Of a stretch of 64,000 bases of DNA, positions 177 to 59,425 are shown piece by piece. How positions within the stretch are numbered: position 1 is the stretch's first letter; each line of letters opens with the position of its first letter. Below the pieces are notes generated by a model. That model did no database searches, was not told the DNA's origin, and saw only the letters and a program-made list of their open reading frames with translations. Both the position numbers and the translations under genes were made by a program. The DNA is from Thiomicrorhabdus sp. Kp2. Lineage in GTDB: Bacteria; Pseudomonadota; Gammaproteobacteria; Thiomicrospirales; Thiomicrospiraceae. The DNA lies in contig NZ_ARWI01000001.1 in the NCBI RefSeq assembly GCF_000478585.1, positions 2,356,001 through 2,420,000 on the forward strand, in the 5' to 3' direction.

Positions 177-188
177 ACCAGGCCTGGT
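177..188. repeat. ACCAGGCCTGGT palindrome, intergenic murD-ftsW
   Basis: Exact 12-bp copy, 14 bp counting the flanking T/A pair. No T-tract follows, so it is not an obvious terminator. Confidence 0.95.
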
Positions 189-243
189 AAAATCAAAATG
201 AACTTAATTGCTAAAATTAAAACGATCAAAATAAAATAAACCA

Positions 244-1491
244 ATGAAATCATTATTTCACACCTTAAAACAGCAAAACAAAACCTGGCCAATGGACTTT
301 TGGTTATTAGGCTTGGTTGTTATTTTGGCGGTAATGGGTTTAACCATGGTGGCCTCAAGTTCTGTTGCTATCAGTCAAAGCCGTTTTGGTAATCCTGACC
401 ACTATTTTTTTCGGCAACTTATGTCGATGGGATTAGGCGGTTTTGCCGCCTATATCTTCTTTCAAGTTCCGCTGGCGTTTTGGGAGAAACATCGCGGTAA
501 AATCTTTTTATTTGCCATTTTCCTGTTAGTTGCGGTATTGATTTTTGGGCGTGAAATAAACGGTAGTAAACGTTGGCTACCGCTGGTTGTTATGAATTTT
601 CAGCCATCGGAGTTTATGAAGCTTGCTATCGTGGTCTTTATGGCGGGCTATTTAGATAAACATGCCTCAGCGGTAAAAGAGGATTTTGGTGCGGTTATTC
701 GTTTGGCGTTACCGTTTGGTTTAATGGCGATTTTGCTGTTAATGGAACCAGATTACGGCAGTACCTTTGTTATAGCGGTGATTATTACGGGTATGTTATT
801 GATTGCAGGGGCGCCTTGGCGTTACTTTGTATTGACAGTTTTACCGATGGTCACCATTTTGGTCGCATTGGTCGTCACCTCAAAATACCGTATGGCGCGA
901 GTCAGTAGTTTCTTAGACCCTTGGCAAGACCCCTTTGGCGCAGGTTATCAATTAACTCAAGCTTTAATTGCCTCTGGAAGTGGCGAATGGTTTGGTGCAG
1001 GTTTGGGGGCAAGTGTACAAAAGCTTTTATACTTACCTGATGCGCACACTGACTTTTTATTCTCAATTTACGCCGAAGAGTTTGGTTTTATTGGTGTGGT
1101 GTTTTTGGTTGGGCTCTATTTGGCGATTTTGTATCGTCTATTCCGAATAGGTCGTAAAGGTATTGAAGCGAATCACTTTTTTGGCGGTATGGTCGCTTAC
1201 GGTATTGGTATTTGGATTATTTTGCAAGCGGGCATCAATATGGGGGTAAACCTCGGTGCCTTTCCTACCAAAGGGTTAACTCTGCCATTTATGAGTTATG
1301 GCGGTAGTAGTGTTTTATTGTTGAGTATCGCTTTGGCGGTGGTGTTTAGGGTTGATTATGAAACCCGTTTTTATCCACGAGAACCAAAAGAAGAGAAGAG
1401 TGAAGACGATGTTGACAGCAACCAAATAGAAAGCAAGCCTCGTAAACGCAGACGAGTTCAATCCGACTCACGCGGTGTTGCGGGAAGTTAG
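244..1491 (+). CDS. ftsW: Peptidoglycan glycosyltransferase / septal SEDS protein FtsW
   Basis: This 415-residue polytopic membrane protein belongs to the SEDS family, which polymerises lipid II at the division septum together with FtsI. Many hydrophobic segments are visible from residue 20 onward. Family motifs include FQPSEFMKLA near residues 119-128 and FMSYGGSS near 349-356. The C-terminal 40 residues are charged and rich in Lys/Arg, so they are probably a cytoplasmic tail. The gene lies between murD and murG, the canonical position, which favours FtsW over RodA. The chosen ATG has no clear Shine-Dalgarno sequence, but the N-terminus matches the family. Confidence 0.95.
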   Translation: MKSLFHTLKQQNKTWPMDFWLLGLVVILAVMGLTMVASSSVAISQSRFGNPDHYFFRQLMSMGLGGFAAYIFFQVPLAFWEKHRGKIFLFAIFLLVAVLIFGREINGSKRWLPLVVMNFQPSEFMKLAIVVFMAGYLDKHASAVKEDFGAVIRLALPFGLMAILLLMEPDYGSTFVIAVIITGMLLIAGAPWRYFVLTVLPMVTILVALVVTSKYRMARVSSFLDPWQDPFGAGYQLTQALIASGSGEWFGAGLGASVQKLLYLPDAHTDFLFSIYAEEFGFIGVVFLVGLYLAILYRLFRIGRKGIEANHFFGGMVAYGIGIWIILQAGINMGVNLGAFPTKGLTLPFMSYGGSSVLLLSIALAVVFRVDYETRFYPREPKEEKSEDDVDSNQIESKPRKRRRVQSDSRGVAGS

Positions 1492-1562
1492 CTTGGTTTT
1501 TCACTTCCACTTTCTAAAGTGATGATGACTTTAGATTTCTAAATAACAAACAGTAGACTTGT

Positions 1563-2639: not shown

Positions 2640-2674
2640 CAAAGTGTGACTAAAAAACAGATTTAGGGTAGAGA

Positions 2675-3454
2675 ATGAAAGGCTTAAAAGACAAACGTAT
2701 TTTAATTACTGGGGCTTCAAGTGGTATTGGTGCAGGTATGGCTAAAGTGCTTGCGCGTGAAGGCTGTAAATTGGTTTTACATTACAACCAGAATGTATCA
2801 GGTATTCAAAATACATTGCAAGAAGTGAAACAGCTTGGCGCTAAAGTCAAATTAGTAAAATGCGATTTTAAAGAACTTTCAAGTTTAAATGATTTTTTTA
2901 ACCAGGCCTGGTCACTTTATGATGGCCTTGACGGTTTAGTGAATAATGCAGGTATTGTGACCAAAAGCACCGCCTTAAAAGACCCTTTAGGTGAAAAGTT
3001 TGCCGAAACTCTGGCGGTGAATTTACAAGCGCCTTATCAACTCAGTACCGCATTTGCTAATGCGTGTATTAAAGCCAAACAACCTGGAGCGATTGTCAAT
3101 AATAGCAGTATTCATGGGCAGGCAACTTGCGAGTGGTTTTCGGCTTATGCAGCTTCTAAAATGGGGTTGGATGCAATAACCAAAGTTCAGGCGGTAGAGT
3201 GGGGGCAATATGGGATTCGTGTTAACGGTTTAGCGCCAGGTGTTGTACCTGTTGAACGCACTCATAAAATTTTAAATGACCCTGCTATGGCAAAAAAATG
3301 GACGGAACAGATGCCCGCTGGCCGTTACGGAACGGTGGAAGAGATGGGCGAAGCCACGGCCTATTTACTTTCAGATGCTACCCAGTGGATGACAGGATCG
3401 ATTTTAACGATTGATGGCGGACTGATTGCACGAGGCAATTATCCAGTACGTTAA
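2675..3454 (+). CDS. Short-chain dehydrogenase/reductase (SDR family), substrate unknown
   Basis: A 259-residue classical SDR. The N-terminal nucleotide-binding motif TGASSGIG is at residues 12-19, a NNAG motif follows, Ser144/145 lies in NNSSIHG, and the catalytic Tyr158 and Lys162 are in YAASK. The C-terminal IDGG is typical of the family. These residues show an active NAD(P)-dependent oxidoreductase but do not define the substrate; FabG-like or sugar dehydrogenase roles are both possible. A good Shine-Dalgarno sequence (AGGGTAGAG) precedes the ATG. The gene is 35 bp after murG, so it may be read from the cell-wall cluster although nothing links the functions. Confidence 0.85.
   Translation: MKGLKDKRILITGASSGIGAGMAKVLAREGCKLVLHYNQNVSGIQNTLQEVKQLGAKVKLVKCDFKELSSLNDFFNQAWSLYDGLDGLVNNAGIVTKSTALKDPLGEKFAETLAVNLQAPYQLSTAFANACIKAKQPGAIVNNSSIHGQATCEWFSAYAASKMGLDAITKVQAVEWGQYGIRVNGLAPGVVPVERTHKILNDPAMAKKWTEQMPAGRYGTVEEMGEATAYLLSDATQWMTGSILTIDGGLIARGNYPVR
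2901..2912. repeat. ACCAGGCCTGGT palindrome inside the SDR gene
   Basis: Exact copy in coding sequence, read in the frame that gives Asn-Gln-Ala-Trp. Confidence 0.95.
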
Positions 3455-3462
3455 ATCGTAAA

Positions 3463-3497
3463 GAAACACAAAGGCACGAAGGCTCGAAGTTTTTTAA
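3463..3497. repeat. CACGAAG-type heptad repeat ending in a T-tract
   Basis: Three degenerate units (CACAAAG, CACGAAG, CTCGAAG) spaced by about two bases run into TTTTTT. A related array in the opposite orientation lies at 6932-6966. Similar strings are scattered in intergenic DNA of many bacteria; the function is unknown. Confidence 0.6.
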
Positions 3498-3508
3498 TAT
3501 ATCGACCT

Positions 3509-3560: not shown

Positions 3561-3628
3561 TTCATCGATTTACCTACAAATCAATTGGTGTTATGTTCTT
3601 TTAACTTAAATTAACTTGGCTAAACTCG

Positions 3629-3640
3629 ACCAGGCCTGGT
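3629..3640. repeat. ACCAGGCCTGGT palindrome, intergenic
   Basis: Exact copy between the SDR gene and the first chemoreceptor gene; flanking bases do not extend the palindrome. Confidence 0.95.
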
Positions 3641-5873: not shown

Positions 5874-5901
5874 AAAAAGCGACCAGGCCTGGTCGCTTTT
5901 T
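5874..5901 (+). terminator. Rho-independent terminator built on the ACCAGGCCTGGT palindrome
   Basis: A 28-bp uninterrupted palindrome centred on 5887/5888, with an A-run on the left arm and T-run on the right. The genome-wide 12-mer forms its centre at 5882-5893. It follows the chemoreceptor stop by 38 bp and should work in both directions. Confidence 0.85.
5882..5893. repeat. ACCAGGCCTGGT palindrome as terminator core
   Basis: Exact copy forming the centre of the terminator at 5874-5901. Confidence 0.95.
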
Positions 5902-6880: not shown

Positions 6881-6890
6881 CCAGGCCTGG
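6881..6890. repeat. CCAGGCCTGG palindrome core, intergenic lgt-thyA
   Basis: Ten-bp core flanked by G and T instead of A and T, 46 bp after the lgt stop. Confidence 0.9.
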
Positions 6891-6989: not shown

Positions 6990-7823
6990 ATGCAGCAGTA
7001 TTTAGATTTATTAAGTCATATTTTGGAAAATGGAACCGATAAAGGCGATAGAACGGGTACGGGTACACGTTCTGTATTTGGTTATCAAATGCGATTTGAT
7101 TTACAACAAGGTTTTCCATTAGTCACCACAAAAAAACTACATATTCGCTCTATTGTGCATGAGTTATTGTGGTTTTTAACAGGTGATACCAATATCCAGT
7201 ATTTGAAAGATAATGGGGTTCGTATTTGGGATGAATGGGCGACCGAATCAGGTGATTTAGGGCCGCTTTATGGAAAGCAATGGGTCGCTTGGCAGAAGCC
7301 GAACGGTGAAACGATTAATCAAATTGCCGAAGTGGTTGAAACCCTTAAAAACAACCCTAATAGTCGCCGAATGATTGTGACCGCTTGGAACCCAGCAGAC
7401 TTGCCTGATGAATCTATTAGCCCTCAGCAAAATGTCGAAAATGGGCAAATGGCATTAGCGACCTGTCACGCCTTTTTTCAGTTTTACGTGGCTAATGGCA
7501 AGCTCTCCTGCCAGTTATACCAACGCAGTGCAGATACCTTTCTTGGTGTGCCATTCAATATTGCCAGTTATGCGCTATTAGTGCATATGATGGCTCAACA
7601 GACAGGCCTGGAAGTTGGTGAGTTTGTCTGGACTGGTGGCGATGTGCATCTCTATAACAATACCATTGAACAGGCAAAAGAGCAGTTAACTCGTGCGCCT
7701 TACCAACTGCCTAAATTAGTGATTAAACGTCAGCCTGAAACGATTTTTGACTACAAGTTTGAGGACTTTGAAATTGTGGGTTATGAATCTCATCCGCATA
7801 TTAAAGCCACGGTGTCCGTATGA
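6990..7823 (+). CDS. thyA: Thymidylate synthase
   Basis: ThyA methylates dUMP to dTMP using methylene-tetrahydrofolate, giving dihydrofolate for the following folA product. The ATG at 6990 gives MQQYLDLL, which matches the family start. A GTG at 6957 would add 11 residues of no family resemblance. The protein has 277 residues, slightly longer than the 264 of E. coli because of an insertion before the active site. The nucleophile is Cys159 in ATCHAFFQF, where many homologues have Pro instead of Thr. The stop overlaps the folA start by four bases, indicating translational coupling. Confidence 0.95.
7603..7611. repeat. CAGGCCTGG partial palindrome inside thyA
   Basis: Nine-base match (ACAGGCCTGGA context), read as Thr-Gly-Leu-Glu. 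It could be a decayed copy or chance. Confidence 0.6.
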
Positions 7824-12893: not shown

Positions 12894-13964
12894 ATGAATA
12901 TTTTATCGAGTTTGAATCATAAAGTATTAAAAGAAGTACGAAAAGAATTAAAACGGCTTCTATTTGGAGAAAAAAGGCGTTTGGATTTATTTAAATCTTA
13001 TTCCTCTCTGATGGCTTTTTGTGCTCTGCCTTTATTGGGCTTCTCTCATTCAAGTTATGCAATTAATATTTCAACCTCAATTCCTCCTTTAGCAGGGATG
13101 ATTGCTCCTTTGCTCTCTGAAGAGGATCATTTGGAAGTAATTCTAAAACCTGGAGCAAGTCCGCATGGTTTTCAATTGAAACCTTCAGACCTAAAAACGC
13201 TTCAACAAAGTGATTTAGTTCTATGGGTGGGAAGTCCTGTTGATAGTTGGATGCAGAAACCATTATCTAATCTTAAAGGCAATGAATTATCTATACAGGC
13301 TTTGGTTGGTATTGAAGAGTTACCCATTAGACAGGGTGGTTTGTGGGAGAAAAAAGGGCATCAACATAAGCACTCTGAACATGCCGATGAACACGAAGAG
13401 CACGAACATGAAATTAGGATGGATGGTCACCTATGGGTGTCTGTTCATAATGCTCAGCGTTTAGTTCTAGCAGTGTCGAAACAGTTACAGTTATTGAAGC
13501 CTGAACAAGCTGGAGCCATAGAGCAAAGAACCCAGGCCTGGTTGTTACAATTGGCAGATACAGATCGACAAATCGTTAACCAACTACAACCCGTAAAAGA
13601 AGTTCCGTTTATGGTTTTGCATGACGCTTTTCAATATTTTGAACATCGTTATGACTTGAACGGTATTGGCTCTATCCAATTGAACCCATCTGTGTCACCA
13701 AGTCTTAAACGTGTGGCGGAATTGCGCGAAAAAATTAAGCAAGGTGATGTGCGTTGTGTGTTTAAAGAACCGCAATTTCCTGCCAAAAGAGTGTTGGCCG
13801 TAACCAAGGGGCTAGATGTGCAGGTGGGAAGTCTTGACCCAATTGGATTAGTTTCCAAAGATTATCAACAAAAAAATGATGCCGACTACTTGCCATATGA
13901 CGTTTTTCTTAAGCAGTTGGCGAATCAATTTTATGATTGTTTAGCGCGTCCATCAGCCCAATAA
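12894..13964 (+). CDS. znuA: Zinc ABC transporter, periplasmic zinc-binding protein
   Basis: ZnuA captures Zn2+ in the periplasm and hands it to ZnuBC. The protein has 356 residues with an unusually long N-region before the signal segment (hydrophobic core about residues 38-52, ending near SSYA). An AAGGATAAGGA sequence supports the ATG at 12894, but the ATG at 13011 would give a normal signal peptide and is an alternative. Family features are SIPPLAGMI, the zinc-ligand His in GASPHGF, a His/Glu-rich flexible loop near residues 152-174 and HLWVSVHNA. The P-loop gene follows 18 bp later. Confidence 0.92.
   Translation: MNILSSLNHKVLKEVRKELKRLLFGEKRRLDLFKSYSSLMAFCALPLLGFSHSSYAINISTSIPPLAGMIAPLLSEEDHLEVILKPGASPHGFQLKPSDLKTLQQSDLVLWVGSPVDSWMQKPLSNLKGNELSIQALVGIEELPIRQGGLWEKKGHQHKHSEHADEHEEHEHEIRMDGHLWVSVHNAQRLVLAVSKQLQLLKPEQAGAIEQRTQAWLLQLADTDRQIVNQLQPVKEVPFMVLHDAFQYFEHRYDLNGIGSIQLNPSVSPSLKRVAELREKIKQGDVRCVFKEPQFPAKRVLAVTKGLDVQVGSLDPIGLVSKDYQQKNDADYLPYDVFLKQLANQFYDCLARPSAQ
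13532..13542. repeat. CCAGGCCTGGT palindrome inside znuA
   Basis: Ten-bp core plus T, preceded by C. The frame gives Thr-Gln-Ala-Trp-Leu. Confidence 0.9.
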
Positions 13965-13982: not shown

Positions 13983-14780
13983 ATGAATACACTTGAATCT
14001 CAAAATATTTTACTCATCGGTTTACCTGGTTCAGGTAAAAGCCGTGTAGCAGAGAGATTAAATAATCAGTTTGCTTGTTCAAAACTCACCGATGCGGATT
14101 TAATTCTAGAAAATCACCAAATTGAATTTACCAGGCCTGGATGTTTTGAGTGGCAAGATTTTATAAAAATGCCTAGTAACCATTCATCGTATGCGGTTTG
14201 GTGTGTGGTTGATATTCGCTCAATATTGCCAGGTGATGATTCTGCTTGGCTAAATACTCAACTACAGCGTTTATTAAAAATATCTGATGGCATCGTGTTT
14301 ACTTTCAGTGAAGAGAGTTCCCTAGATGACCAGGCCTGGTGGGGTAAATGGGTTGTACAGAATAGGCCAGAGAATTCATCCTTGCCTGTTGTGCGTATGT
14401 TAAATCATGCCTTGCCAGAAAGCTTTAACGGCTTTACTAAAACAAATGACACCCAAGCGAGCTCATTAGAAGCTCGGGGGAGTGTCAAGAATGTATCCGA
14501 AAAAATAGAATGTTTTCACTTTAAGTTAGAACGGATTGTGTTGGATCATCTGCTTATGGTGTTGGATAACGCTCGACAGAACTTAGGCATGAATATTACC
14601 CGAGTGGTAGGAACGTTAAAAACACTAGAGTATCAAAATCTAGTCACGATAGAGGGAACCCCGTATCGTTGGGATACCTTTGCGGCAGAGTCCGATGACC
14701 AACTTGGCCAGTTAACAATTAGTGGTGTAAACCTTGAGAAAGCTTGGTTGTCAGAAATGATTCAGGCTTGTAAGGCTTGA
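13983..14780 (+). CDS. P-loop protein with CobW-C-like tail, probably linked to zinc uptake
   Basis: I do not recognise this 265-residue protein with certainty. A Walker A motif GLPGSGKS lies at residues 13-20. The last 65 residues (VVGTLKTLEYQNLVTIEG, ... LTISGVNLEKAWLSEMIQAC) resemble the C-terminal domain of CobW/COG0523 metallochaperones. The CxCC metal motif of those GTPases is absent and the middle is poorly conserved. Cotranscription with znuA (18-bp gap) suggests a role in zinc allocation. Two copies of the genome-wide palindrome lie inside the gene, encoding TRPG and DQAW. A terminator follows. Confidence 0.5.
   Translation: MNTLESQNILLIGLPGSGKSRVAERLNNQFACSKLTDADLILENHQIEFTRPGCFEWQDFIKMPSNHSSYAVWCVVDIRSILPGDDSAWLNTQLQRLLKISDGIVFTFSEESSLDDQAWWGKWVVQNRPENSSLPVVRMLNHALPESFNGFTKTNDTQASSLEARGSVKNVSEKIECFHFKLERIVLDHLLMVLDNARQNLGMNITRVVGTLKTLEYQNLVTIEGTPYRWDTFAAESDDQLGQLTISGVNLEKAWLSEMIQACKA
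14130..14141. repeat. ACCAGGCCTGGA palindrome inside the P-loop gene
   Basis: Eleven of twelve bases match; the frame gives Thr-Arg-Pro-Gly. Confidence 0.9.
14329..14340. repeat. ACCAGGCCTGGT palindrome inside the P-loop gene
   Basis: Exact copy 199 bp after the preceding one, in another frame (Asp-Gln-Ala-Trp). Confidence 0.95.
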
Positions 14781-17249: not shown

Positions 17250-18587
17250 ATGCAAAGAAAAATCTCTCCCGTAGCCAAAAAAGCGGTTGAACATTATGTG
17301 GCTCAATCGGAGTTGCTGAATGCGACTTGTCAAAGTGCTTCTTTACAAAAAATTCGCCAACAAGCCCAACAATTGTTGAATGAGCAGGGTTTTCCTACGC
17401 AGCGAGATGAGGAGTGGCAATACACTCGTTTAACAGGTTTTGTACAAAACCATTTTGCTATGCAACCTGCGGTACCCGTTACGAGTCAACAAGTTCGTCA
17501 GTTTATGCCTGGTTTCCCAGTCACGATGGTGGTGTTTGTTGATGGCTGGTTTAGTGAATCGTTATCCGATGATTTAGAAGCTCTGCCAAAAGGTGTGATT
17601 TATGAATCTTTTAGAGATATTGAATCCATCGCTGGTAATGCTGAAGTGTTATTTGAAAGAGAAAAACAGATAACTAAAGAGCCATTTGGTGTTTTAAATA
17701 GTCTTTTGTTAGCGGATGGTTTTTATCTTCAGTTAGCTGCCAATGCTTATATGGAAATGCCATTTTTTGTTTTGCATATCCAGACACAAAAAAATCAAAT
17801 GAGCAATGTGCGTAATCGCGTTGAACTTGGCGAAAATGCAGAGTTAACTTTGGTTGAACGTTTTGTGTCTTTAGCCGAATTAACGGGCGAAACAGACAGT
17901 AGTGCCTGCACGAATGTTGTGACTGAAATTGAGATAGCTAAACAAGCGCGTTGTAAACAAATTGTGATGCAAGAGCAAAATGATAGCGCATTCTACTTCA
18001 ATAACCAGTTTATCTATCAAGCGGATAATAGCAGTTTTCATAGTTTTTATGGCGGTTTAGGTTCGCAGCTTTCGCGCCATCAAAATCATATTTTGATGAA
18101 TGGCGAATACATTGAAAGCCAGCAGAATAGCGCGTGTTTAGCTAAAGATAACCAAGTCGTTGACTCTCGTACAGATACCCAACATAACGATGTTTGGGGC
18201 ACTAGTCAGCAGTTGCATAAATATGTATTAACCGATCACGCTATTGGCGTTTTTAATGGGATGATTCGTGTTGATCAAAAGGCACAAAAGACCGATGGTC
18301 AAATGGATAACAAAAACCTATTGTTATCAAATCAAGCCAAAATGGACACCAAACCTCAGTTAGAGATTTATGCGGATGATGTAAAGTGTTCTCACGGTTC
18401 TGCATCAGGTCAGATTGATAAAAATCAAATCTTCTATTTGCAAGCTCGCGGGATTCGTCGTGCAGATGCGATTAAGATGATTACCCATGCCTTCTTGCTT
18501 GAACCTGCAGAAGACATTAGTAATGAGCAAATCCGACACTGGGTAACAGATCGTCTTTCAGCAGGCCTGGTAAAAATCCATCAGTAA
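17250..18587 (+). CDS. sufD: Fe-S cluster assembly protein SufD
   Basis: SufD pairs with SufB to hold the nascent cluster and is needed for iron entry. The frame is open from 17175, inside sufC, but the ATG at 17250 has a GAGAGCGGA Shine-Dalgarno-like stretch and gives a 445-residue protein of normal size. The C-terminal half carries the SufB/D beta-helix signatures, including DVKCSHGSASGQIDKNQIFYLQARGI. The gene follows sufC by 19 bp. Confidence 0.94.
   Translation: MQRKISPVAKKAVEHYVAQSELLNATCQSASLQKIRQQAQQLLNEQGFPTQRDEEWQYTRLTGFVQNHFAMQPAVPVTSQQVRQFMPGFPVTMVVFVDGWFSESLSDDLEALPKGVIYESFRDIESIAGNAEVLFEREKQITKEPFGVLNSLLLADGFYLQLAANAYMEMPFFVLHIQTQKNQMSNVRNRVELGENAELTLVERFVSLAELTGETDSSACTNVVTEIEIAKQARCKQIVMQEQNDSAFYFNNQFIYQADNSSFHSFYGGLGSQLSRHQNHILMNGEYIESQQNSACLAKDNQVVDSRTDTQHNDVWGTSQQLHKYVLTDHAIGVFNGMIRVDQKAQKTDGQMDNKNLLLSNQAKMDTKPQLEIYADDVKCSHGSASGQIDKNQIFYLQARGIRRADAIKMITHAFLLEPAEDISNEQIRHWVTDRLSAGLVKIHQ
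18562..18572. repeat. CAGGCCTGGTA partial palindrome inside sufD
   Basis: Nine-base core in a GCAGGCCTGGT context, nine codons before the sufD stop, read as Ala-Gly-Leu-Val. Confidence 0.75.
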
Positions 18588-19889: not shown

Positions 19890-19917
19890 AAGCTACCAGG
19901 CCTGGTAGCTTTTTAGA
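19890..19917 (+). terminator. suf operon terminator built on the ACCAGGCCTGGT palindrome
   Basis: A 22-bp perfect palindrome (19890-19911, arms AAGCTACCAGG / CCTGGTAGCTT) followed by more T residues. The genome-wide 12-mer forms the whole upper stem. Confidence 0.85.
19895..19906. repeat. ACCAGGCCTGGT palindrome as suf terminator core
   Basis: Exact copy at the centre of the suf terminator. Confidence 0.95.
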
Positions 19918-20474: not shown

Positions 20475-21863
20475 ATGAAAGAACAAGTTAAACAGATTCA
20501 TTTTGTTGGAATCGGTGGTGTAGGTATGGCGGGTATTGCTGAGGTTTGTCTTAACCTTGGATATATTGTGTCTGGCTCTGATTTAAAACATAACCCGACA
20601 GTCGCGCGTTTAGAATCTTTAGGCGCACTGATTCAGCTAGGGCATGAAGCGGATCACGTTAAAAATACCGATGTGGTGGTGGTTTCTACCGCCATTGGAG
20701 CAGGTAATGCGGAAGTTGATTGGGCAAGAAGCACCCGTATCCCCGTTATTCCTCGTGCTGAAATGTTAGCTGAATTAATGAGAATGCGTTTTGGAATCGC
20801 GATTGCAGGAACCCACGGAAAAACCACAACAACCAGTCTTGCCGCCTCGGTACTGACACAAGGTGGGATTGATCCAACTTTTGTGATTGGTGGTAAATTG
20901 AACCAGGTCGGTTCTAATGCTCGCTTGGGTTCGAGTCGTTATTTAGTTGCCGAGGCGGATGAATCCGATGCTTCATTTTTACACCTTTCACCGATGATGT
21001 CGGTGGTTACCAATATTGATGAAGATCATATGGAAACCTATCAAGGTGATTACCAAAATTTAGAAAACACCTTTATCGAATTTATTCATCGTTTGCCATT
21101 TTATGGCATGGCGATTATGTGTATAGACGATGAGAATATTCAAAAGATTTTACCTAAACTATCCCGTAAAGTTTTGACCTATGGTTTTGCTGAAAATGCC
21201 GATATCAGAGCCATCAATGTTACTGCAAAAGGGTTGCAGATGCAGTTTCAGGTTCTGGTTGGCCGTGAACGTAGCTTTGATATTACGCTGAACCTACCTG
21301 GAAAACACAACGTATTAAATGCGCTTGCCGCAATTGCGATTGCTCTAAAGTTGGATGTTTCGGTAGAAGCGATTCAGCAGGCTTTAAATGAATTTGGTGG
21401 TGTAGGGCGACGTTTTGAGGTTTATCCTGAACGTGTTATTGGCAATCATACCGTAACTTTAGTGGATGATTATGGTCATCACCCAACAGAGCTTGAAGCG
21501 ACCATCTCGACGGCCAGAGACGCTTTTCCAGAAAAACGTTTGGTTTTAGTTTTTCAACCGCATCGTTACACCCGAACACGTGACTTGTTTGATGACTTTG
21601 TTCAAGCCTTAATGGGGCCTGATTTGGTGATTTTATTAGATGTTTATGCCGCTGGTGAAATGCCATTGCCAATGTTTGATTCAAAATCACTGCTTCAAGC
21701 CTTGAGGCTGCGTGGTGAACATGGCTTTTATGCTGACAGTTTAGAGCAGCTAGATGAAATCGCTAAAGATGTTTTGCATGATGATGATGTCGTTCTCGTT
21801 ATGGGAGCGGGTGATGTGGGGCAGGTCGCTAAAAACTGGCACTCAGTTGAGGAGCAGGTTTAA
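20475..21863 (+). CDS. murC: UDP-N-acetylmuramate--L-alanine ligase
   Basis: MurC adds L-alanine to UDP-MurNAc, the first step of the peptide stem of peptidoglycan. The protein has 462 residues: an N-terminal Rossmann motif GIGGVGMAG (12-20), the ATP-binding loop GTHGKTTTT (112-120) and a C-terminal Mur ligase domain with FQPHRYTRT. Its stop overlaps the ddlB ATG by one base. It opens the second part of the division cluster, separated by nearly 18 kb from murG, its usual upstream neighbour. Confidence 0.96.
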   Translation: MKEQVKQIHFVGIGGVGMAGIAEVCLNLGYIVSGSDLKHNPTVARLESLGALIQLGHEADHVKNTDVVVVSTAIGAGNAEVDWARSTRIPVIPRAEMLAELMRMRFGIAIAGTHGKTTTTSLAASVLTQGGIDPTFVIGGKLNQVGSNARLGSSRYLVAEADESDASFLHLSPMMSVVTNIDEDHMETYQGDYQNLENTFIEFIHRLPFYGMAIMCIDDENIQKILPKLSRKVLTYGFAENADIRAINVTAKGLQMQFQVLVGRERSFDITLNLPGKHNVLNALAAIAIALKLDVSVEAIQQALNEFGGVGRRFEVYPERVIGNHTVTLVDDYGHHPTELEATISTARDAFPEKRLVLVFQPHRYTRTRDLFDDFVQALMGPDLVILLDVYAAGEMPLPMFDSKSLLQALRLRGEHGFYADSLEQLDEIAKDVLHDDDVVLVMGAGDVGQVAKNWHSVEEQV

Positions 21864-22771
21864 TGAAGTTTGGAAAAGTGGCTGTATTAATGGGCGGTAA
21901 AGCGGCTGAGCGAGACGTTTCGTTAAGAAGTGGTGCTGCGGTTACTGAAGCTTTATTGGCTCAAGGCATTGATGCGGTTTCAGAAGATGTCACGCAACTA
22001 GAAGATTTACAGCGTATTGCTAAAGAGTACGATAGAGCGTTTATTGCCTTGCACGGTCGTTGGGGTGAAGATGGTGTGGTTCAAGCTGTTTTAGATGATT
22101 TAGGGTTACCTTATACAGGCAGTGGAATGACCGCGTCAGCTGTTGCCATGGATAAACTAAGAACCAAGTGGATGTGGATGGGAGCAGGCCTGCCAACTCC
22201 AGGATTCATCTGGGTCTCTGATTTGATGCCATTAGATATTGATGAGTTTGATTTACCATTTCCAGTCATTGTAAAACCATGCCATGAAGGTTCTAGTATT
22301 GGTATGCGTAAGGTCTATGACAAAGAGAGCTTGGTTGAAGCCGTCACTTACGCTCGTGAGTTTGACTCGGAAGTTTTGATTGAACAGTGGATTACCGGGC
22401 GTGAATATACTGGGGCGGTATTGAATAACCAGGCTTTGCCATTGATTCAGTTAAAAACCTCACATGATTTTTATGATTTTGATGCTAAATACAAATCAAA
22501 CGATACTCAATATATTTGCCCTTGTGGCCTTGATTCAGAAAGTGAAAGTGATATTCAAAATTTAGTTTTACAAGCCTTTCATGTGCTTGGTTCACAGGGA
22601 TGGGGGCGAGTGGATTTAATGTTGGATGAGGATGACCAGGCCTGGTTAATCGAGCTCAACTCGGTTCCTGGTATGACGGATCATAGTCTTGTTCCTATGG
22701 CTGCGAAGGTGGCTGGGATCAGTTTTGAAAATTTAGTTGTTGAAATTTTAAAAACAACCTTAAAGCGTTAA
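21863..22771 (+). CDS. ddlB: D-alanine--D-alanine ligase
   Basis: A 302-residue ATP-grasp enzyme that joins two D-alanines for the peptidoglycan stem. Family features are the N-terminal VLMGGKAAERDVSLRSG loop, LHGRWGEDG, the ATP-binding PVIVKPCHEGSSIGM stretch and the metal-binding LIELNSVPGMTDHSLVP near the end. It overlaps murC by one base and precedes ftsQ, the standard cluster order, which is why it is called ddlB rather than ddlA. Confidence 0.95.
   Translation: MKFGKVAVLMGGKAAERDVSLRSGAAVTEALLAQGIDAVSEDVTQLEDLQRIAKEYDRAFIALHGRWGEDGVVQAVLDDLGLPYTGSGMTASAVAMDKLRTKWMWMGAGLPTPGFIWVSDLMPLDIDEFDLPFPVIVKPCHEGSSIGMRKVYDKESLVEAVTYAREFDSEVLIEQWITGREYTGAVLNNQALPLIQLKTSHDFYDFDAKYKSNDTQYICPCGLDSESESDIQNLVLQAFHVLGSQGWGRVDLMLDEDDQAWLIELNSVPGMTDHSLVPMAAKVAGISFENLVVEILKTTLKR
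22184..22191. repeat. CAGGCCTG, decayed palindrome inside ddlB
   Basis: Eight-base centre only, in a GCAGGCCTGCC context. It may be chance; recorded because full copies are so frequent. Confidence 0.3.
22635..22646. repeat. ACCAGGCCTGGT palindrome inside ddlB
   Basis: Exact copy; the frame gives Asp-Asp-Gln-Ala-Trp-Leu just before the catalytic LIELNSVPG segment. Confidence 0.95.
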
Positions 22772-31880: not shown

Positions 31881-31892
31881 ACCAGGCCTGGT
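31881..31892. repeat. ACCAGGCCTGGT palindrome between hisC and mutT-thiE
   Basis: Exact copy within an imperfect palindrome of about 22 bp (31876-31897) in the divergent promoter region. It has nearly the same arms as the copy at 39465-39486. Confidence 0.95.
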
Positions 31893-32963: not shown

Positions 32964-33581
32964 TTAAGTTTCTGTTGAAAATGGTTCAAGCTTGGAAAGA
33001 ACGCTCTGTTCTAATGTTTCAAGCGAGCCACTATTATCAATAATAGAGTCAGCGTATTGCAGTCTCTCTTGTCTAGTGGCTTGTTGTGCAATAATCTTTT
33101 CGATTAATGCGCGGTCATTGCCATCTCTTTGTACAGCGCGTTGTATTTGTTGTTCAATAGAGCAATCAACCACCCAAATTTCATCTATATAACCAGGCCT
33201 GGTAGTTTGTTTTTTGATGGATTCAATTAAAAGCGGGATGGCAACAACGATATGTGTTGGTTTGGCTTTCCTATACTCGGTAATTTTTTGAAGCGTTTTC
33301 TCTAGAATAAGTGGGTGGAGAATCGATTCTAACGCTTGTTTTGCGCTTGCTTCATTGAAGATGATTTTTCTTAGAAGTGCTCGGTTAAGTGTACCATCCG
33401 TATTGAGGCATTTTTCGCCAAAACACTCCACAACCTGTTGGAGTCCTTTGGAATGCGGCTCTACAACTTCGCGGGATAGTTGATCGGTATCGATTATAGG
33501 GATATTGTGCTTTTCTAATAGCGCTGTAACGGTGCTTTTTCCTGCGCCAATACCACCTGTAAGTCCAATCACTTTAGTCAT
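32964..33581 (-). CDS. coaE: Dephospho-CoA kinase
   Basis: CoaE phosphorylates dephospho-CoA, the last step of coenzyme A synthesis. The 205-residue protein has the P-loop GGIGAGKST at residues 9-17, DTDQLSREVV just after, and IPLLIES in the lid region. It is convergent with the MutT-ThiE gene with a 27-bp gap and no visible terminator. One copy of the genome-wide palindrome lies inside, encoding Thr-Arg-Pro-Gly. Confidence 0.94.
   Translation of the reverse strand: MTKVIGLTGGIGAGKSTVTALLEKHNIPIIDTDQLSREVVEPHSKGLQQVVECFGEKCLNTDGTLNRALLRKIIFNEASAKQALESILHPLILEKTLQKITEYRKAKPTHIVVAIPLLIESIKKQTTRPGYIDEIWVVDCSIEQQIQRAVQRDGNDRALIEKIIAQQATRQERLQYADSIIDNSGSLETLEQSVLSKLEPFSTET
33192..33203. repeat. 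ACCAGGCCTGGT palindrome inside coaE
   Basis: Exact copy; in the minus-strand gene it gives Thr-Arg-Pro-Gly. Confidence 0.95.
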
Positions 33582-39464: not shown

Positions 39465-39486
39465 AAGTTACCAGGCCTGGTAACTT
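39465..39486. repeat. 22-bp perfect palindrome containing ACCAGGCCTGGT, between grxD and rnt
   Basis: The 12-mer is at 39470-39481 with arms extended by AAGTT / AACTT. It is 22 bp from the rnt stop on the minus strand but lacks a T-run, so a terminator role is possible but not clear. Confidence 0.93.
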
Positions 39487-46353: not shown

Positions 46354-47832
46354 TTATTCTTGCTCTTTATCGTTATTATTCAACAACTTGCTGTTTTGGT
46401 TTTTAAATAGGGTGATTTGTTTCTCAATATTTTGGTCATTGTTTGTTTTGGCGGCAAGGGCTTGTTTTAGGAAATACTTACTTCGTTCTGGGTTTCCACT
46501 CTCCAGATAGGCTTTGGCTAAATTGAAATAAGCTTCAGCTTTCTGTTCTTTTTTCGCAAAAAATTCTGAAAGCTCGATGTATAAGTTGTATTTATATAAC
46601 AAATATTGCTCAGCATTGATCAATATATTTTTAGCGTCTATGTCTTTATTGAGCTTCCTTAGTAATCGACTGTAGTAGATAGGAAGCGATTCATTGTCTG
46701 GATGAAGTTCTATTTTAAGTGCTATCTGCTTATTTACATTTGAAAGGTTTTTAATACTTATAGGCTCGTCTTGTTTGATTAAGCTTTGTATCAGTGCTGA
46801 CATATATATGGGGTTAGAATTTGTATAGGCGAGTGTGTATAAACAATCTGGTGCTTTGTTGTGGTTTTCAGTGTGCTCAAGTGTTTTTTCATAGCAGGCC
46901 TGGTTTTCATGATGGCTGTGTGAGTGGTTCTTTTTATACTCAGTGTGACTGTTGTTTAAGAGTTTAATTCTTTTCTGAATTAAGTTTAATTGACTCTGTG
47001 GTTTTGCTTTGTTGTTTGGTTTGAGGTTTTGTGCACGATTTTCTGCTTCTGCAAGTCTATTTTCTGATACGGGGTGTGTTCTCAGTATTTCAGGTACTTT
47101 AATTGTATCGAGTTGGCTCTCTTTTGAAAGGCGTGCAAAGAAACTGCCCATGGCATGTGGGTTGTAACCCGTATTGTAGAGCAGGGTGATGCCTATAGCA
47201 TCTGCTTCTGATTCATGTTGCCTGGAGTTTTTTAATTGTTGCTGTAAGTTATATCCCATGCCTCCCATAAGTGCAGCCATTCCTGCTGAAGGGTCTTGGG
47301 TGCCTATTAATATGGCAGCAATAAGTGTGGCAATGGTACTGATTCCGCCCTGTGTGCTTGAGTATTCGTATCTTCTTGATAGATGATTTTGAGTGACGTG
47401 GGATATTTCGTGGGCAATAACCGCTGCCAGTTCATCTTCAGTTTCACAAGCTAAAATAAGTCCTGTATGGATACCTATTACACCGTCAGGGCCAGCAAAA
47501 GCATTAATGCTTGAATCATCAATAATATAAAAAGAGTAGTTGCGATTATTGCCCGTATAGCTTGCTAGTTTGTGGCCAAGCTCTCTAATGTAGTCATTGG
47601 TGTCCAAATCATTGAGTAGTTTATAGTGTGTGTGGAGAGCAGAGGTGAATGCTCTTCCAAGATTTTGTTCTGTTTCAGTGTCGTATTCAACAAGGTCAGG
47701 AGCGCCCAAATCAGGAAGAGTGTTTGCATGGGTTAGATTTGAATGGCAGAGGGTTAGTAATAAACAGATTAGGCTAAACCGTATTAAGTCATATGGTTTT
47801 GGTTGTTTATTTACTTGATTAGAAGTCTTCAT
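46354..47832 (-). CDS. Periplasmic M48 metalloprotease with TPR domain, BepA-like
   Basis: A 492-residue protein with an N-terminal signal segment (about 17-36). An M48 peptidase domain carries HEISH (His141, Glu142, His145) and the downstream ESEADAIG glutamate, and a C-terminal TPR region holds about four helical repeats. BepA of E. coli assists assembly or disposal of outer-membrane proteins such as LptD. The His-rich insertion near residues 300-312 is unusual. It lies between the sox operon and tusA without a functional link that I can see. Confidence 0.87.
   Translation of the reverse strand: MKTSNQVNKQPKPYDLIRFSLICLLLTLCHSNLTHANTLPDLGAPDLVEYDTETEQNLGRAFTSALHTHYKLLNDLDTNDYIRELGHKLASYTGNNRNYSFYIIDDSSINAFAGPDGVIGIHTGLILACETEDELAAVIAHEISHVTQNHLSRRYEYSSTQGGISTIATLIAAILIGTQDPSAGMAALMGGMGYNLQQQLKNSRQHESEADAIGITLLYNTGYNPHAMGSFFARLSKESQLDTIKVPEILRTHPVSENRLAEAENRAQNLKPNNKAKPQSQLNLIQKRIKLLNNSHTEYKKNHSHSHHENQACYEKTLEHTENHNKAPDCLYTLAYTNSNPIYMSALIQSLIKQDEPISIKNLSNVNKQIALKIELHPDNESLPIYYSRLLRKLNKDIDAKNILINAEQYLLYKYNLYIELSEFFAKKEQKAEAYFNLAKAYLESGNPERSKYFLKQALAAKTNNDQNIEKQITLFKNQNSKLLNNNDKEQE
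46895..46905. repeat. CAGGCCTGGTT partial palindrome inside the M48 protease gene
   Basis: Nine-base core in a GCAGGCCTGGT context. The minus-strand gene reads Asn-Gln-Ala-Cys, one base from the Gln-Ala-Trp version. Confidence 0.7.
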
Positions 47833-48144: not shown

Positions 48145-48669
48145 ATGGAATTAGAAGTACCTACAAAGAGTAATCTTAGTATTATTCATTCAAAGGGAAC
48201 CCTTGATTGGGCTTATCCTACCTTTATATTGGCCAGTACGGCTGCGGCAATGGATAAAGATGTTCAATTGTTTTTTACATTCTACGGTTTAAAAGCGGTT
48301 CTAAAATCGACCGATTCGTTAAAAGTTTCTCCATTAGGAAACCCAGGAATGGTTATTAGAAGTCCTGTTGGGCCCGAATGGCTGACTAATATCGATTTTA
48401 ATCAGGTGTTACCAGGCCTGGTATGGACATTACCAGGAATGAGTCTATTAGCGACTTGGGGATTTAAGAAAACACTTTTACAGCAAGGGCAGGTACCGAT
48501 AGAGGAATTGCGAGATCTTTGTATTGAGCTGGGCGTTAATATGACGGCTTGTCAAATGACGATGGAGATGATGGGGCATCAAGAGAGTGATTTTATCGAT
48601 GGAATAGGTTTTGCCGGTGCCGCAACGTATTTTGCAAACACTTCTGAGAGCCAGAGTCTATATGTGTAG
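48145..48669 (+). CDS. DsrE2-like sulfur transfer protein (DsrE/DsrF-like family)
   Basis: A 174-residue protein of the DsrE2 type, with the conserved ACQMTMEMMG motif (Cys136) and a second Cys126. The N-terminal SKGTLDWAYPTFILASTAAAM is a family hallmark. These proteins are often membrane-associated, and a hydrophobic stretch near 90-104 agrees. They work with TusA and rhodanese to pass sulfur in the cytoplasm. The start is eight bases after tusA, giving a two-gene operon. One exact palindrome copy lies inside (Pro-Gly-Leu-Val). Confidence 0.88.
   Translation: MELEVPTKSNLSIIHSKGTLDWAYPTFILASTAAAMDKDVQLFFTFYGLKAVLKSTDSLKVSPLGNPGMVIRSPVGPEWLTNIDFNQVLPGLVWTLPGMSLLATWGFKKTLLQQGQVPIEELRDLCIELGVNMTACQMTMEMMGHQESDFIDGIGFAGAATYFANTSESQSLYV
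48411..48422. repeat. ACCAGGCCTGGT palindrome inside dsrE2
   Basis: Exact copy; the frame gives Leu-Pro-Gly-Leu-Val. Confidence 0.95.
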
Positions 48670-48774: not shown

Positions 48775-48786
48775 ACCAGGCCTGGT
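48775..48786. repeat. ACCAGGCCTGGT palindrome upstream of pssA
   Basis: Exact copy in the 177-bp gap between dsrE2 and pssA, 61 bp before the pssA start. Confidence 0.95.
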
Positions 48787-51332: not shown

Positions 51333-51923
51333 ATGTCAAAAATACAATTTTCAAATAACTTATTTTCTCAAATAGGTGGTTCAAACTGGGTTACCAGGCC
51401 TGGTTACTTTGATATAGAGACAAAGCCATTAAATAATGGAGAGACCTTGGGTAATAATCAAAATGAACCCTTTTTAGACTCAATTGATAATCAAGTTGAT
51501 CTATTGGAAGAAAAGAATCTTCTTGTTGAAGAGCCGTTGTTTCAATCTAAGGTACAGGCTCAGACTGTTACCTCTGTGGTTGTTTTAGGAGCTGGCTTGG
51601 AGAGTGTTTGGCAAAATGATGAATCTTTGGCATGGCAACTTTGGCAGAATATTATGAAGGCCTTTGACTGGGATGAAACGCAAGTTGTGTTTTTTGATAC
51701 CGAGTTGTTGGTCACTGAAGATGCTGTTTTTTCTACCATGGAAGAAGTTATTGATTTAGGTGTCGAATGGGTGTTAACGATGGATGAGGAGCATGAAATT
51801 TCTGAGCAGCTTTCTGAAGGTGTCCAAGTCGTTTCAGTGCCAGAATTTGAATTGATGCTGTCTGACCCTTATGCAAAACAAAGTTTTTATCACTCTGTTG
51901 TCTCTTTAAATCGTTGTATTTAA
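51333..51923 (+). CDS. HolD-like protein, possible DNA polymerase III psi subunit
   Basis: A 196-residue acidic protein. Its two ends resemble HolD: an N-terminal helix plus GGSNWVTRPGYF, like the LGITQW..RRPG segment of E. coli psi, and a C-terminal VSVPEFELMLSDPYAKQSFY, like VASPALTDLRANPTARAALW. The middle VVVLGAGLES and FDWDETQVVFF fit the same fold. It lies 27 bp before rimI, the gene that also follows holD in E. coli. The protein is about 60 residues longer than E. coli psi because of a low-complexity insert. The call is a likeness, not proof. Confidence 0.55.
   Translation: MSKIQFSNNLFSQIGGSNWVTRPGYFDIETKPLNNGETLGNNQNEPFLDSIDNQVDLLEEKNLLVEEPLFQSKVQAQTVTSVVVLGAGLESVWQNDESLAWQLWQNIMKAFDWDETQVVFFDTELLVTEDAVFSTMEEVIDLGVEWVLTMDEEHEISEQLSEGVQVVSVPEFELMLSDPYAKQSFYHSVVSLNRCI
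51393..51404. repeat. ACCAGGCCTGGT palindrome inside the HolD-like gene
   Basis: Exact copy; it encodes Thr-Arg-Pro-Gly, the very residues that resemble the conserved RPG of HolD. Confidence 0.95.
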
Positions 51924-53417: not shown

Positions 53418-54233
53418 ATGATTGAAGATTACCGTCTTGATCCAGGATTGGCGAAAATTAGAATTGTGCTTATTGAAACTTCACACCCTGGAAATATTGG
53501 CGGAATTGCACGTGCCATGAAAAATATGGGGCTAAGTCAGTTAGTTTTGGTTAACCCTAAGGAGTTTCCAAGCCAGGTCGCATCAGCAAGAGCATCGAGT
53601 GCTACTGATGTTTTAAATGATGCAAAGGTTGTTGCAACTTTGGATGAAGCATTGTTGGGTACCAAGTTGGTGGTAGGGGCAAGTGCCAGGCTACGAAAGG
53701 TGTCTTGGCCTCAGCTTGATGTTAGAGAAACTGCTAAGCTTGCTCTTGAAACTGTTGACGAGGGAGAGGTGGCTCTTGTTTTTGGTCGAGAGGACTCGGG
53801 TTTAAGTAATGCAGAAATGGATAAGTGTCATTATCTAGCTCATATTCCAACCAACCCAACTTATAGCTCATTAAATATTGGAGCGGCAGTTCAGGTCTTT
53901 GCTTATGAGTGTTTAATGGCCACTCAAATTGAGTCTGTTCACCGAAAAGGTTATCGTCATAAATTGGCGAGTACGGAGCAATTGGAGGGCTTTTATGATC
54001 ATTTATTTCTTGCTTTACAAGATATCGATTTTTTAGATCCTGATAAAAATGCACGTTTTATGCGAAGAATGCGTCGTTTGTTTAACCGCTCTCAATTGGA
54101 TGTTAAAGAAATTGATATCTTAAGGGGAATTTTAACCGCCGCTCAAAGGCAGTCACCTAAATACAATGAGCGATTAGAGGAAGTCAACACAATATCGCCA
54201 ACACTTTTACAGGAGAACACGGACAGTGTTTAA
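53418..54233 (+). CDS. trmJ: tRNA (cytidine/uridine-2'-O-)-methyltransferase TrmJ
   Basis: TrmJ methylates the 2'-OH of tRNA residue 32. The 271-residue SPOUT protein has the N-terminal [19 protein letters not shown] and the knot motifs [13 protein letters not shown] and [23 protein letters not shown]. The stop lies eight bases inside cysE, so the two are coupled. Order suhB, trmJ, cysE, iscR is shared with many gammaproteobacteria. Confidence 0.95.
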
Positions 54234-55011
54234 GAGATTGAGATCAGATATTAATTGTGTTTTTGATCGTGATCCAGCGGCTCGAAATACGTTTGAGGTG
54301 TTAACGACTTATCCTGGGTTGCATGCCATTCTATGGTATCGACTTGCTCACTGGTTTTGGAAGATTAACTTTAAGTGGTTGGCTCGATTTATCTCAGGTT
54401 TTGCACGATGGTTTACTGGGATTGAAATTCACCCAGCGGCTAAAATTGGTGAACGTTTTTTTATTGATCATGGTATGGGTGTTGTGATTGGTGAGACTGC
54501 GGAAATTGGTGATGATTGTACTTTGTATCATGGTGTTACACTCGGCGGTACATCATGGAAAAAGGGTAAGCGTCACCCTACTTTAGGTAATGGTGTGGTT
54601 GTGGGTGCAGGCGCTAAAGTTCTTGGGCCTATTGAGATTGGCGATGGTGCAAGGGTTGGTTCTAACGCAGTTGTTATTAAACCTGTTGGTAAGGGCGAAA
54701 CCGTTGTTGGTATTCCTGGGCGAGTGGTCAAACAACAAGCAGATGATGTAAAGGTCAAAAGAGCCAAGATGGCAGAAAAAATTGGTTTTGATGCTTATGG
54801 TGTGGGCCAAGAAATGGCTGACCCTGTTGAAAAAGCGATTTATAGTTTACTGGATCATATTCAGGTTCAAGATGAAAAGCTAGAAAAGCTTGCCGCCTCT
54901 TTGGCAGCAATGGGTGGTGAGTCAATCGATATTGATCTACCAGGCCTGGACGATGCCGTTCTTGAACCAAGTGATCCGAGTCAGGCTGCTCATTTAAAGA
55001 AGAGAAGTTGA
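54226..55011 (+). CDS. cysE: Serine O-acetyltransferase
   Basis: CysE makes O-acetylserine, the acceptor for sulfide in cysteine synthesis, and thus supplies cysteine to SufS. The 261-residue protein starts at a GTG with AGGAG ten bases upstream. The N-terminal helical region ends near IHPAAKIGE. The left-handed beta-helix then carries [30 protein letters not shown] and [22 protein letters not shown]. The C-terminal 60 residues are an acidic, less conserved extension. The gene lies directly before iscR, a common arrangement linking cysteine to Fe-S synthesis. Confidence 0.95.
54939..54950. repeat. ACCAGGCCTGGA palindrome inside cysE
   Basis: Eleven of twelve bases match; the frame gives Leu-Pro-Gly-Leu-Asp in the variable C-terminal tail. 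Confidence 0.9.
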
Positions 55012-55901: not shown

Positions 55902-55930
55902 CTGGTAATACTATATTTTGACAAAAGTAG

Positions 55931-56441: not shown

Positions 56442-56456
56442 TAGTTGTAACCTAAA

Positions 56457-57602: not shown

Positions 57603-57628
57603 ATGGTTTAACCAGGCAGGAATAGATA

Positions 57629-58096
57629 ATGACCGATACCGTTGAAGATTCAAATGCTCAATTATCCGAATTACTTGCTCTTGGGCGTGAACAAAAGAAT
57701 CTCTCTATTGATGAGGCGGCAGAAAAGCTAAATTTATCTTGCAAACAATTAGAAAAGCTTGAAAGCGGTGATTTGAATTTACAAAGTTTATCGACCTTTG
57801 AGCGTGGTTATCTGAGGAACTACGCTTCTTTAGTTGATGTTAATCTAGACGAGTTTGAAATATATTTTCCACATGGAATTAATGTGGGTTCTGAGTTGCA
57901 ATCGATACAGCGTGATGGTTTTAAAACAACAAAACCCATTATGAGTCGATTATGGGTAAAAATAACGTTATTTATCTCCATTGTCGTTTTGATTGTGTGG
58001 TTCCTGTCCTCATTAGGTATTGATTTGTCACAAGTCGATTTAAACAAAACATTAGAACAAGCAACAGAGATTACTTTACCTAATCCGATACAGTAA
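57629..58096 (+). CDS. rodZ: Short RodZ-like cytoskeletal protein
   Basis: RodZ anchors MreB to the membrane and supports rod shape. This version has 155 residues. An N-terminal Xre-type HTH domain (about 11-75, with LSIDEAAEKLNLS and LQSLSTFERGYLRNYASLV) is followed by one transmembrane segment near 110-130. Only about 25 periplasmic residues remain. The C-terminal beta domain of E. coli RodZ (337 residues) is missing. There is no frameshift visible and the reading frame ends cleanly before hisS, so the short form is probably genuine. Position between rlmN and hisS supports the name. Confidence 0.8.
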   Translation: MTDTVEDSNAQLSELLALGREQKNLSIDEAAEKLNLSCKQLEKLESGDLNLQSLSTFERGYLRNYASLVDVNLDEFEIYFPHGINVGSELQSIQRDGFKTTKPIMSRLWVKITLFISIVVLIVWFLSSLGIDLSQVDLNKTLEQATEITLPNPIQ

Positions 58097-58141
58097 TTTT
58101 CAATACCCATTAATATATAAGATTTAAGAGAAAAAGAGACA

Positions 58142-59425
58142 ATGGCAAATCAAATTTCAGCAATCAGAGGAATGAATGACATATATGGTGCGGATGCAAA
58201 CGCCTTTGATTACTTAATTAAAACCGCTGAAAAAACTCTACAACAATATGGCTTTAACTCAATTCGTTTGCCTATTGTTGAAAAAACCGAATTATTTGCT
58301 CGTTCAATTGGTGAAGTAACCGACATTGTTGAAAAAGAGATGTATACCTTTTCGGACCGAAATGGTGAAAGTTTAACCTTACGTCCAGAAGGTACCGCAG
58401 GTTGCGTACGAGCAATTGTCCAAAACGGTCTAGCTCATAACCAAATCCAAAAACTCTATTACACTGGGCCTATGTTCCGTTACGAGCGTCCACAAAAAGG
58501 GCGTTATAGGCAGTTTCACCAGTTTGGTGTTGAAGTATTTGGTTTAGCTTCGGCTGATGTAGATGCGGAGCTGATTGTTTTAACGGCTCGTTTATGGGAA
58601 CAGTTGGGGCTAGAAAACCTCGAACTACAAATTAACTCTTTAGGAAGTCAAGAAGCAAGAGAAAACTATCGTAATACATTGGTTTCTTATCTGTCTCAGC
58701 ATAAAGATAAGCTTGATGAAGATAGTCTTAGACGTCTAGAGACTAATCCGTTACGGATTTTAGATACTAAAAATCCCGATATGAAAACGTTGGTTGATGG
58801 AGCTCCAAAATTAATCGATCACCTTGATGATGAATCAAAAGCCCATTTTGAAACGGTAAAATCACATCTTGATGATATTGGCATTGCTTATGTTGTTAAT
58901 CCAAACTTGGTGAGAGGTCTAGATTACTATAATCGCACTGTTTTTGAGTGGGTAACAACAGAGCTAGGGGCGCAAGGGACGGTTTGTGCGGGTGGACGCT
59001 ACGATGGTTTGGTTGAACAGATTGGTGGAAAATCCGTTCCAGCTGTGGGTTTTGCTATGGGAATTGAACGTTTAGTGGCTTTGTTAATGGATAAAGAGCT
59101 TGTTCCAGTCGTTGGTGAAGCAGATTTGTTTATTGTGGCGGCAGGAGAAAAAGCTTCAAGACCAGGCCTGGTAATTTCTGAAATGATTCGTGATGCCTTT
59201 CCAGCATTAAATGTACAGATGAATTGCGGAGGCGGTAGCTTTAAAAGTCAGTTTAAAAAAGCGGATAAATCTGGAGCTAGCTACGCAATCGTTATGGGAG
59301 AACAAGAGATTGATGAGCAAGTGGTTGCGGTTAAACCTCTTCGTTCAGAAGGTGAACAGCAAATTATTAAATGGACTGAGTTAACCACTTACTTGCGTAC
59401 ACTTTTCACTGATAGTAAACATTAA
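58142..59425 (+). CDS. hisS: Histidine--tRNA ligase
   Basis: A 427-residue class II aminoacyl-tRNA synthetase. Motif 2 is in [21 protein letters not shown], the histidine-specific segment is [12 protein letters not shown], and motif 3 ends in GFAMGIERL. The C-terminal anticodon-binding domain includes one exact palindrome copy (59161-59172, Arg-Pro-Gly-Leu-Val). ispG, which separates rodZ and hisS in E. coli, is absent; the gap is 45 bp. Confidence 0.97.
59161..59172. repeat. ACCAGGCCTGGT palindrome inside hisS
   Basis: Exact copy; the frame gives Arg-Pro-Gly-Leu-Val in the anticodon-binding domain. Confidence 0.95.

Follow-up and report, generated by a model that had tools for sequence, protein, structure and literature searches.

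A palindrome repeated across the window

The window analysed here, a 64-kb stretch of the genome of Thiomicrorhabdus sp. Kp2 (G000; other genomes of the family are numbered in the same way), carries a 12-bp palindrome, ACCAGGCCTGGT, in 14 exact copies, against a mean of 0.00 in 100 dinucleotide shuffles. The inner 10-mer CCAGGCCTGG occurs 18 times (0.02 expected), that is, in the 14 exact copies and at positions 6881, 13532, 14131, and 54940, and the hexamer AGGCCT occurs 30 times versus about 10 expected. A sequence-only reading of the window had listed the same sites. All of its positions for the exact copies are correct, the three 9-bp cores it reported at 7603, 18562, and 46895 were found, and its four extra 10-bp cores are present, one of them given as 13533 and lying one base away, at 13532.

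The copies are located both between and within genes, as judged by our own gene calls from open reading frames (ORFs) and codons, which define gene boundaries throughout; no strand is assigned to any copy. Exact copies in intergenic DNA are found at 177..188, upstream of ftsW, at 3629..3640, at 5882..5893 and 19895..19906, both of which form a longer dyad followed by a T-run (AAAAAGCGACCAGGCCTGGTCGCTTTTTT for the former), at 31881..31892 between divergent genes, at 39470..39481 between convergent genes, where the motif is embedded in AAGTTACCAGGCCTGGTAACTT, and at 48775..48786. Within genes, exact copies occupy 2901..2912 in an SDR-family gene, 14329..14340 in ORF 13983-14780, 22635..22646 in ORF 21863-22771, 33192..33203 in ORF 32964-33581, 48411..48422 in ORF 48145-48669, 51393..51404 in ORF 51333-51923, and 59161..59172 in ORF 58142-59425. 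The 10-bp cores lie at 6881..6890 in the intergenic lgt/thyA gap, at 13532..13541 within a ZnuA-like gene, at 14131..14140, again within ORF 13983-14780, and at 54940..54949 within ORF 54226-55011, and the 9-bp cores are found at 7603..7611 within thyA, at 18562..18570 within a sufD-like gene, and at 46895..46903 within ORF 46354-47832.

A relative, Thiomicrorhabdus sp. Milos-T2, has 9 motif copies in 22 kb. Over the first 15 kb of the window, against a background identity of 70%, this genome retains 6 of the 9 core sites. Specifically, the sites at 177, 2901, and 14329 are kept, as are the core at 6881 and the 8-bp core of the sites at 13532 and 14131, while Milos-T2 has no site at the positions matching 3629, 5882, and 7603. 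This conservation exceeds that of the control, in which 56 of 602 GC-matched 8-mers were kept (p 6e-5).

Genome-wide enrichment and anatomy of the motif

The whole genome of G000 (one contig, 2,725,706 bases) holds 557 ACCAGGCCTGGT sites, and the reversed control gives 0. In a 464-kb sample consisting of the window and 20 stretches of 20 kb, we counted 110 sites versus 0.06 expected under a third-order Markov model. The sequence-only reading had proposed to look for enrichment beyond the window and for an effect of composition; the enrichment extends to the whole genome, and composition is excluded as the cause of the count. Its view that the copies belong neither to a single mobile element nor to a single regulon also stands.

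The 8-bp core CAGGCCTG is near-invariant: among the 12-mer copies with a single mismatch (n = 56), the changed base is one of the two outermost in a half in 54 and an internal one in 2. Among 214 CAGGCCTG sites, GT is present on both sides in 110, on one side in 69, and on neither in 35, which is roughly what we estimate for independent halves. Beyond the 12-mer, each side continues with A, A/G, any base, T, and T. The A(A/G)nTT flank is also found at the copies inside genes, which show no significant extra symmetry, and therefore this flank seems to be part of the DNA signal. The intergenic copies exceed the expected mirror symmetry at +1, +2, +3, and +6, as if some of them additionally served as RNA hairpins.

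Placement along the genome

The 110 sampled copies divide into 58 intergenic, 51 in genes, and 1 at an edge, while intergenic DNA makes up 11% of the bases (p 1e-26). By gap type, there are 16 copies in 9.6 kb of convergent, 35 in 29.6 kb of tandem, and 6 in 11.7 kb of divergent gaps, plus 1 at a stretch end, and the copies are denser in convergent than in divergent gaps (p 0.01). An intergenic excess is likewise seen in G027 (13/23), G023 (16/23), G008 (8/9), G021 (6/10), G049 (4/10), G005 (4/5), G013 (5/7, in two of its three stretches), and G024 (8/20, p 0.045); it is not significant in G061 (2/5) and G006 (4/7), the 2 of 11 tests that miss p 0.05.

The gene-end placement is what one would expect if the motif were mainly a transcription-terminator stem copied around the genome. 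About half of the copies are intergenic, those in tandem gaps are mostly closer to the upstream stop (23 of 35), the intergenic copies show extra dyad symmetry, and TTTT lies near 30 of 58 of them. However, 51 of the 110 copies are inside genes, and the TTTT excess is modest, since TTTT also lies close to 17 of 50 copies within genes; besides, terminators have no need of one fixed sequence. We consider this explanation very improbable. The in-gene copies are spread over every reading frame (24, 22, and 5; n = 51), and therefore no single encoded peptide explains the motif; a peptide or codon cause was ruled out.

Along the genome, the distribution of sites ranges from even to random. The intervals between the first 100 sites have a coefficient of variation of 0.78, and counts per 20 kb give a variance/mean ratio of 0.63 for the 12-mer and 1.15, near Poisson, for the 8-bp core. 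The idea that motif-poor stretches are foreign islands was not borne out: two stretches of G000 free of the 12-mer, 17 and 14 kb long, still have 6 core 8-mers apiece.

Distribution in the family and dialects

The family consists of bacteria that oxidise sulfur and hydrogen. Counts of ACCAGGCCTGGT in 62 of its genomes, which represent seven genera and include G000, are 84-718 in 27 genomes (motif-rich) and 0-38 in the rest; a search at the level of the order gives the same 62 genomes. In a sample of 369 genomes of the class, 4 belong to the family and each of the other 365 has at most 5 copies. By these counts, the motif is lineage-specific.

Six motif-poor relatives (G027, G023, G036, G007, G008, and G013) carry replacement motifs, which we call dialects. 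In whole-genome counts, ACCGGCCGGT has 1025 copies in G027 and at most 15 elsewhere, where reversed controls reach 19. AACAGGCCGGGT has 482 copies in G023 (242 on the + strand and 240 on the - strand), 275 in G036 (137 and 138), and at most 8 elsewhere. CCCARCCTGGYAG has 314, 331, and 376 copies in the Hydrogenovibrio-like genomes G007, G008, and G013, respectively, and at most 1 elsewhere. Both AACAGGCCGGGT and CCCARCCTGGYAG are non-palindromic, with an A/T tract adjoining the core; one half is short, and the other has kept a long arm with a T tract at its end (CCTGTTGAGTTTT, CCTGGCAGATTTT). The dialect CCCARCCTGGYAG contains no GGCC. Additionally, a variable form resembling AACAGGCCTGTT was seen in samples of 60 and 20 kb from G024 and G046. 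Variation also exists among the ACCAGGCCTGGT genomes, where small samples give AAnTT (G000), CAA (G021), TAAATTT (G061), and GGnTTT (G005) after the final GGT. In most of the sampled consensi, CCTG or CCGG forms a shared half-site with a T tract a few bases on; the G021 consensus has none. Head-to-head pairs of sites, 22-25 bp apart, number at least six in G036, by our reading of the site listing, and two in the G023 sample.

A clear motif was not found in the samples of G031 (200 kb), G050 (160 kb), and G025 (140 kb), nor a clear dialect in those of G029, G042, and G030 (60 kb each). Several motif-poor genomes have about twice the expected number of TACCGGCA (22 vs 9.7 in G031; 12 vs 4.6 in G029), and the count of ACCGGCCGGT is 15 in both G029 and G031, versus 3 and 2 for the controls. 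The mild excess in these two and other motif-poor relatives may reflect a dialect that is faint or has decayed, or may be due to chance.

Some of the sampled stretches contain other repeats. A unit of about 28 copies, probably part of an array of clustered regularly interspaced short palindromic repeats (CRISPR) or of another array, dominates the k-mer counts of G007 C1:1-20000; GGGGTAAGGCGAGAAA-type k-mers, possibly CRISPR repeats, recur 4-6 times in stretches of G013 and G007; and the stretches of G050 hold head-to-tail CTAACTG-type repeats.

DNA methyltransferases and repair

The sequence-only reading had named cyanobacterial HIP1 as one analogy, and like HIP1 and the alternate HIPs described in cyanobacterial relatives (PMC4390886), the motif is a highly iterated palindrome with alternates in related genomes. 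By a HIP1-like mechanism, a DNA methyltransferase would recognise the palindrome, and methylation-linked mismatch repair would create and keep the sites. The palindromic form of the motif in most motif-rich genomes, the near-invariant core with no halo of mismatched copies, and the change of dialect, which resembles the alternate HIPs, all fit such a mechanism, and G000 does encode a C5 methyltransferase (C1 ~1,919,700-1,921,700, next to gltD). This protein has an excisionase-like N-terminal part and adjoins a weak match to a type II restriction enzyme, and thus is perhaps part of a restriction-modification system. Moreover, a search limited to the C5 type gave no methyltransferase match in 18 of the 27 motif-rich genomes, of which G048 and G057 are only 83-86% complete. 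This counts against the C5 form of a HIP1-like mechanism; a C5 methyltransferase was rejected as universal partner, and no C5 enzyme pattern matching the motif was found. A HIP would be expected to be palindromic in its alternates too, whereas AACAGGCCGGGT and CCCARCCTGGYAG are not, and the latter is the dialect with no GGCC. Outside the motif, neither GGCC nor CCWGG is enriched on masked counts, and a methylation or repair bias at either sequence was ruled out. The A/T flanks and the intergenic bias may also set the motif apart from HIP1. Together, these results speak against the HIP1 analogy, and we regard a mechanism of this kind as improbable.

The palindrome can also be read as CCAGG-CCTGG, two Dcm sites back to back, which would suggest a Dcm/Vsr-type repair bias. 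Here, only the coincidence of sequence is in favour: CCAGG and CCTGG are slightly depleted outside the motif (observed/expected 0.80-0.89), and the dialects ACCGGCCGGT and AACAGGCCGGGT contain no CCWGG, so that this explanation is already contradicted. As a separate observation, GGGCCC outside the motif is strongly depleted in the G000 sample (6 vs 37 expected), perhaps as the footprint of a restriction-modification system.

A putative uptake-like self-DNA tag

We suggest that ACCAGGCCTGGT is a self-DNA tag of this lineage that works like a DNA uptake sequence (DUS), an interpretation by analogy to which we assign a probability of about 0.6; we do not file the motif as a member of that class. 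This interpretation is based on the copy number, the lineage restriction, the dialects with a common half-site, the head-to-head pairs, and the gene-end placement, all of which match the DUS and the uptake signal sequences (USS), as well as on the non-palindromic forms with A/T tracts, whose strands are nearly balanced. Uptake sequences had also been proposed in the sequence-only reading, and they are the closest match in copy number, dialects, intergenic excess, and inverted pairs. Competence machinery, as judged by ComEC and pilin-type genes, is present too. ComEC was matched in 56 of the 62 family genomes and in 26 of the 27 motif-rich ones, and gave no match in G050, which is 99% complete and whose sample shows no clear motif. 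All 14 genomes examined have genes with a pilin N-methylation (N_methyl) domain, a group that includes type II secretion pseudopilins. With only 3 such genes each, G008, G013, and G056 offer fewer receptor candidates, if the receptor has this domain. In one pilin-like family, CPDTDGDGxENR follows the N-methylation segment, and the scanned members match no Pfam family above the cut-off beyond N_methyl.

Published accounts describe dialects for both DUS and USS (PMC3630211, PMC12616744). As in the Neisseriaceae DUS, the tag has at least hundreds of copies, species dialects that share the inner part, an intergenic placement, and inverted pairs at gene ends. It differs from them in sequence, lineage, and lower copy number, in the core that has no one-mismatch halo, in being mostly a perfect palindrome, in the missing ComP family match, and in that its uptake role is putative. 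The nearest precedent for the palindrome is found in Simonsiella, whose simDUS/kingDUS form overlapping dyads with 1294 occurrences, read as a hint of dimeric recognition in PMC3630211. The Pasteurellaceae USS likewise combine a core with A/T tracts, dialects, and terminator pairs (PMC12616744); their core is unrelated, and in our motif the A/T tract lies directly beside the core, on both sides in most palindromic dialects.

In Neisseria, the surface DNA receptor is a minor type IV pilin. By analogy, we infer that a pilin recognises the tag, that tagged DNA is taken up preferentially, and that a drive spreads the tag. Specifically, the competence machinery would have a DNA receptor at the cell surface that prefers DNA with the core CAGGCCTG, the outer GT, and the A(A/G)nTT flank. 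The tag would accumulate genome-wide because tagged DNA, once released, would be preferentially taken up and recombined back. It would settle most easily between genes, where it may partly double as a transcription-terminator stem. If the specificity of the receptor drifted, the genomic tag would drift along, giving rise to dialects. The palindromic dialects would then be two half-sites facing each other, and the other dialects would have one half changed.

Evidence against an uptake role and a rival DNA-binding protein

Several observations weigh against an uptake role. Known uptake sequences show a large excess of one-mismatch copies, according to PMC3630211 and PMC1939737, whereas here such an excess, which is typical of the class and not strictly defining, is confined to the outer two positions; one-mismatch copies of the 8-bp core are not in excess (166 seen vs 241 expected, both strands counted). 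ComEC does not discriminate, since it was matched in G025 and G031 as well, and no clear motif was seen in the samples of these two. The family ComP_DUS (PF16732) had no match above the cut-off in the 62 genomes, and GspH/FimT (PF12019) matched in 3 of 60, none of them motif-rich; judged by gene sizes and order only, these matches look like part of a type II secretion cluster. In an alignment of one N_methyl family, the minor pilins look acidic by eye; they also occur in genomes with no clear motif, and the alignment gave no distinction between motif-rich and motif-poor genomes. The matches listed in our literature searches include no uptake experiment in these genera. Pairs of CCCARCCTGGYAG are of mixed orientation, with one head-to-head and one tail-to-tail in G008, two tail-to-tail in G013, and none in G007, where the strands are also unequal (178/136, p 0.02). 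Finally, there is a mild orientation bias along the chromosome: the first 43% of the G008 main contig (2,491,293 bases, starting at a dnaA-like gene) holds 64 of 182 + sites (p 0.04), and the first 47% of the G007 main contig holds 64 of 178 (p 0.003).

This bias is one of the observations that would fit a site for a chromosome-organising or other abundant DNA-binding dimer, the protein and its sites co-evolving with no link to uptake. The palindromic form, the strict core, the strong conservation of sites, and the fairly even spread of the 12-mer are also as expected for such a protein, although the spread of the core is near Poisson. A palindrome cannot be polar within its own genome, and the known chromosome-organising sites matS, KOPS, and parS are few or strongly polar. 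The bias observed is far from all-or-none; a strongly polar Chi/KOPS-like motif is not supported in G008, where a mild bias is possible. Also against a DNA-binding dimer, related genomes show no clear motif in their samples (G031, G050, and G025) or have a non-palindromic one. We think this explanation unlikely, and a self-DNA tag that works like an uptake sequence is the reading we prefer.

Implications

More tentatively, the motif may represent a family of self-DNA uptake signals that arose independently in chemolithoautotrophs, the third of its kind, with a receptor that acts as a symmetric pair on the palindromic core. The sequence-only reading had known of no earlier description of the motif in sulfur-oxidising gammaproteobacteria, which holds only within the reach of our literature searches: among the matches listed in open-licence literature there is no motif, iterated-palindrome, or uptake-sequence paper for this family, and this is not proof of novelty. 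If the motif is no uptake signal, a strict 8-bp core repeated hundreds of times lacks a good explanation among the element types tested.

The four counted dialects in one small family provide a natural experiment in which a receptor and hundreds of sites would change together. If the more tentative reading of a third signal family is true, the transition from palindromic to one-sided dialects, or the reverse, is still on display among these genomes, and the co-evolution of receptor and signal could be traced step by step. If chemolithoautotrophs proved to be a third case, uptake signals could no longer be seen as peculiar to the families of Neisseria and Haemophilus, and, as a practical lead, these autotrophs might be transformed more easily with tagged DNA.

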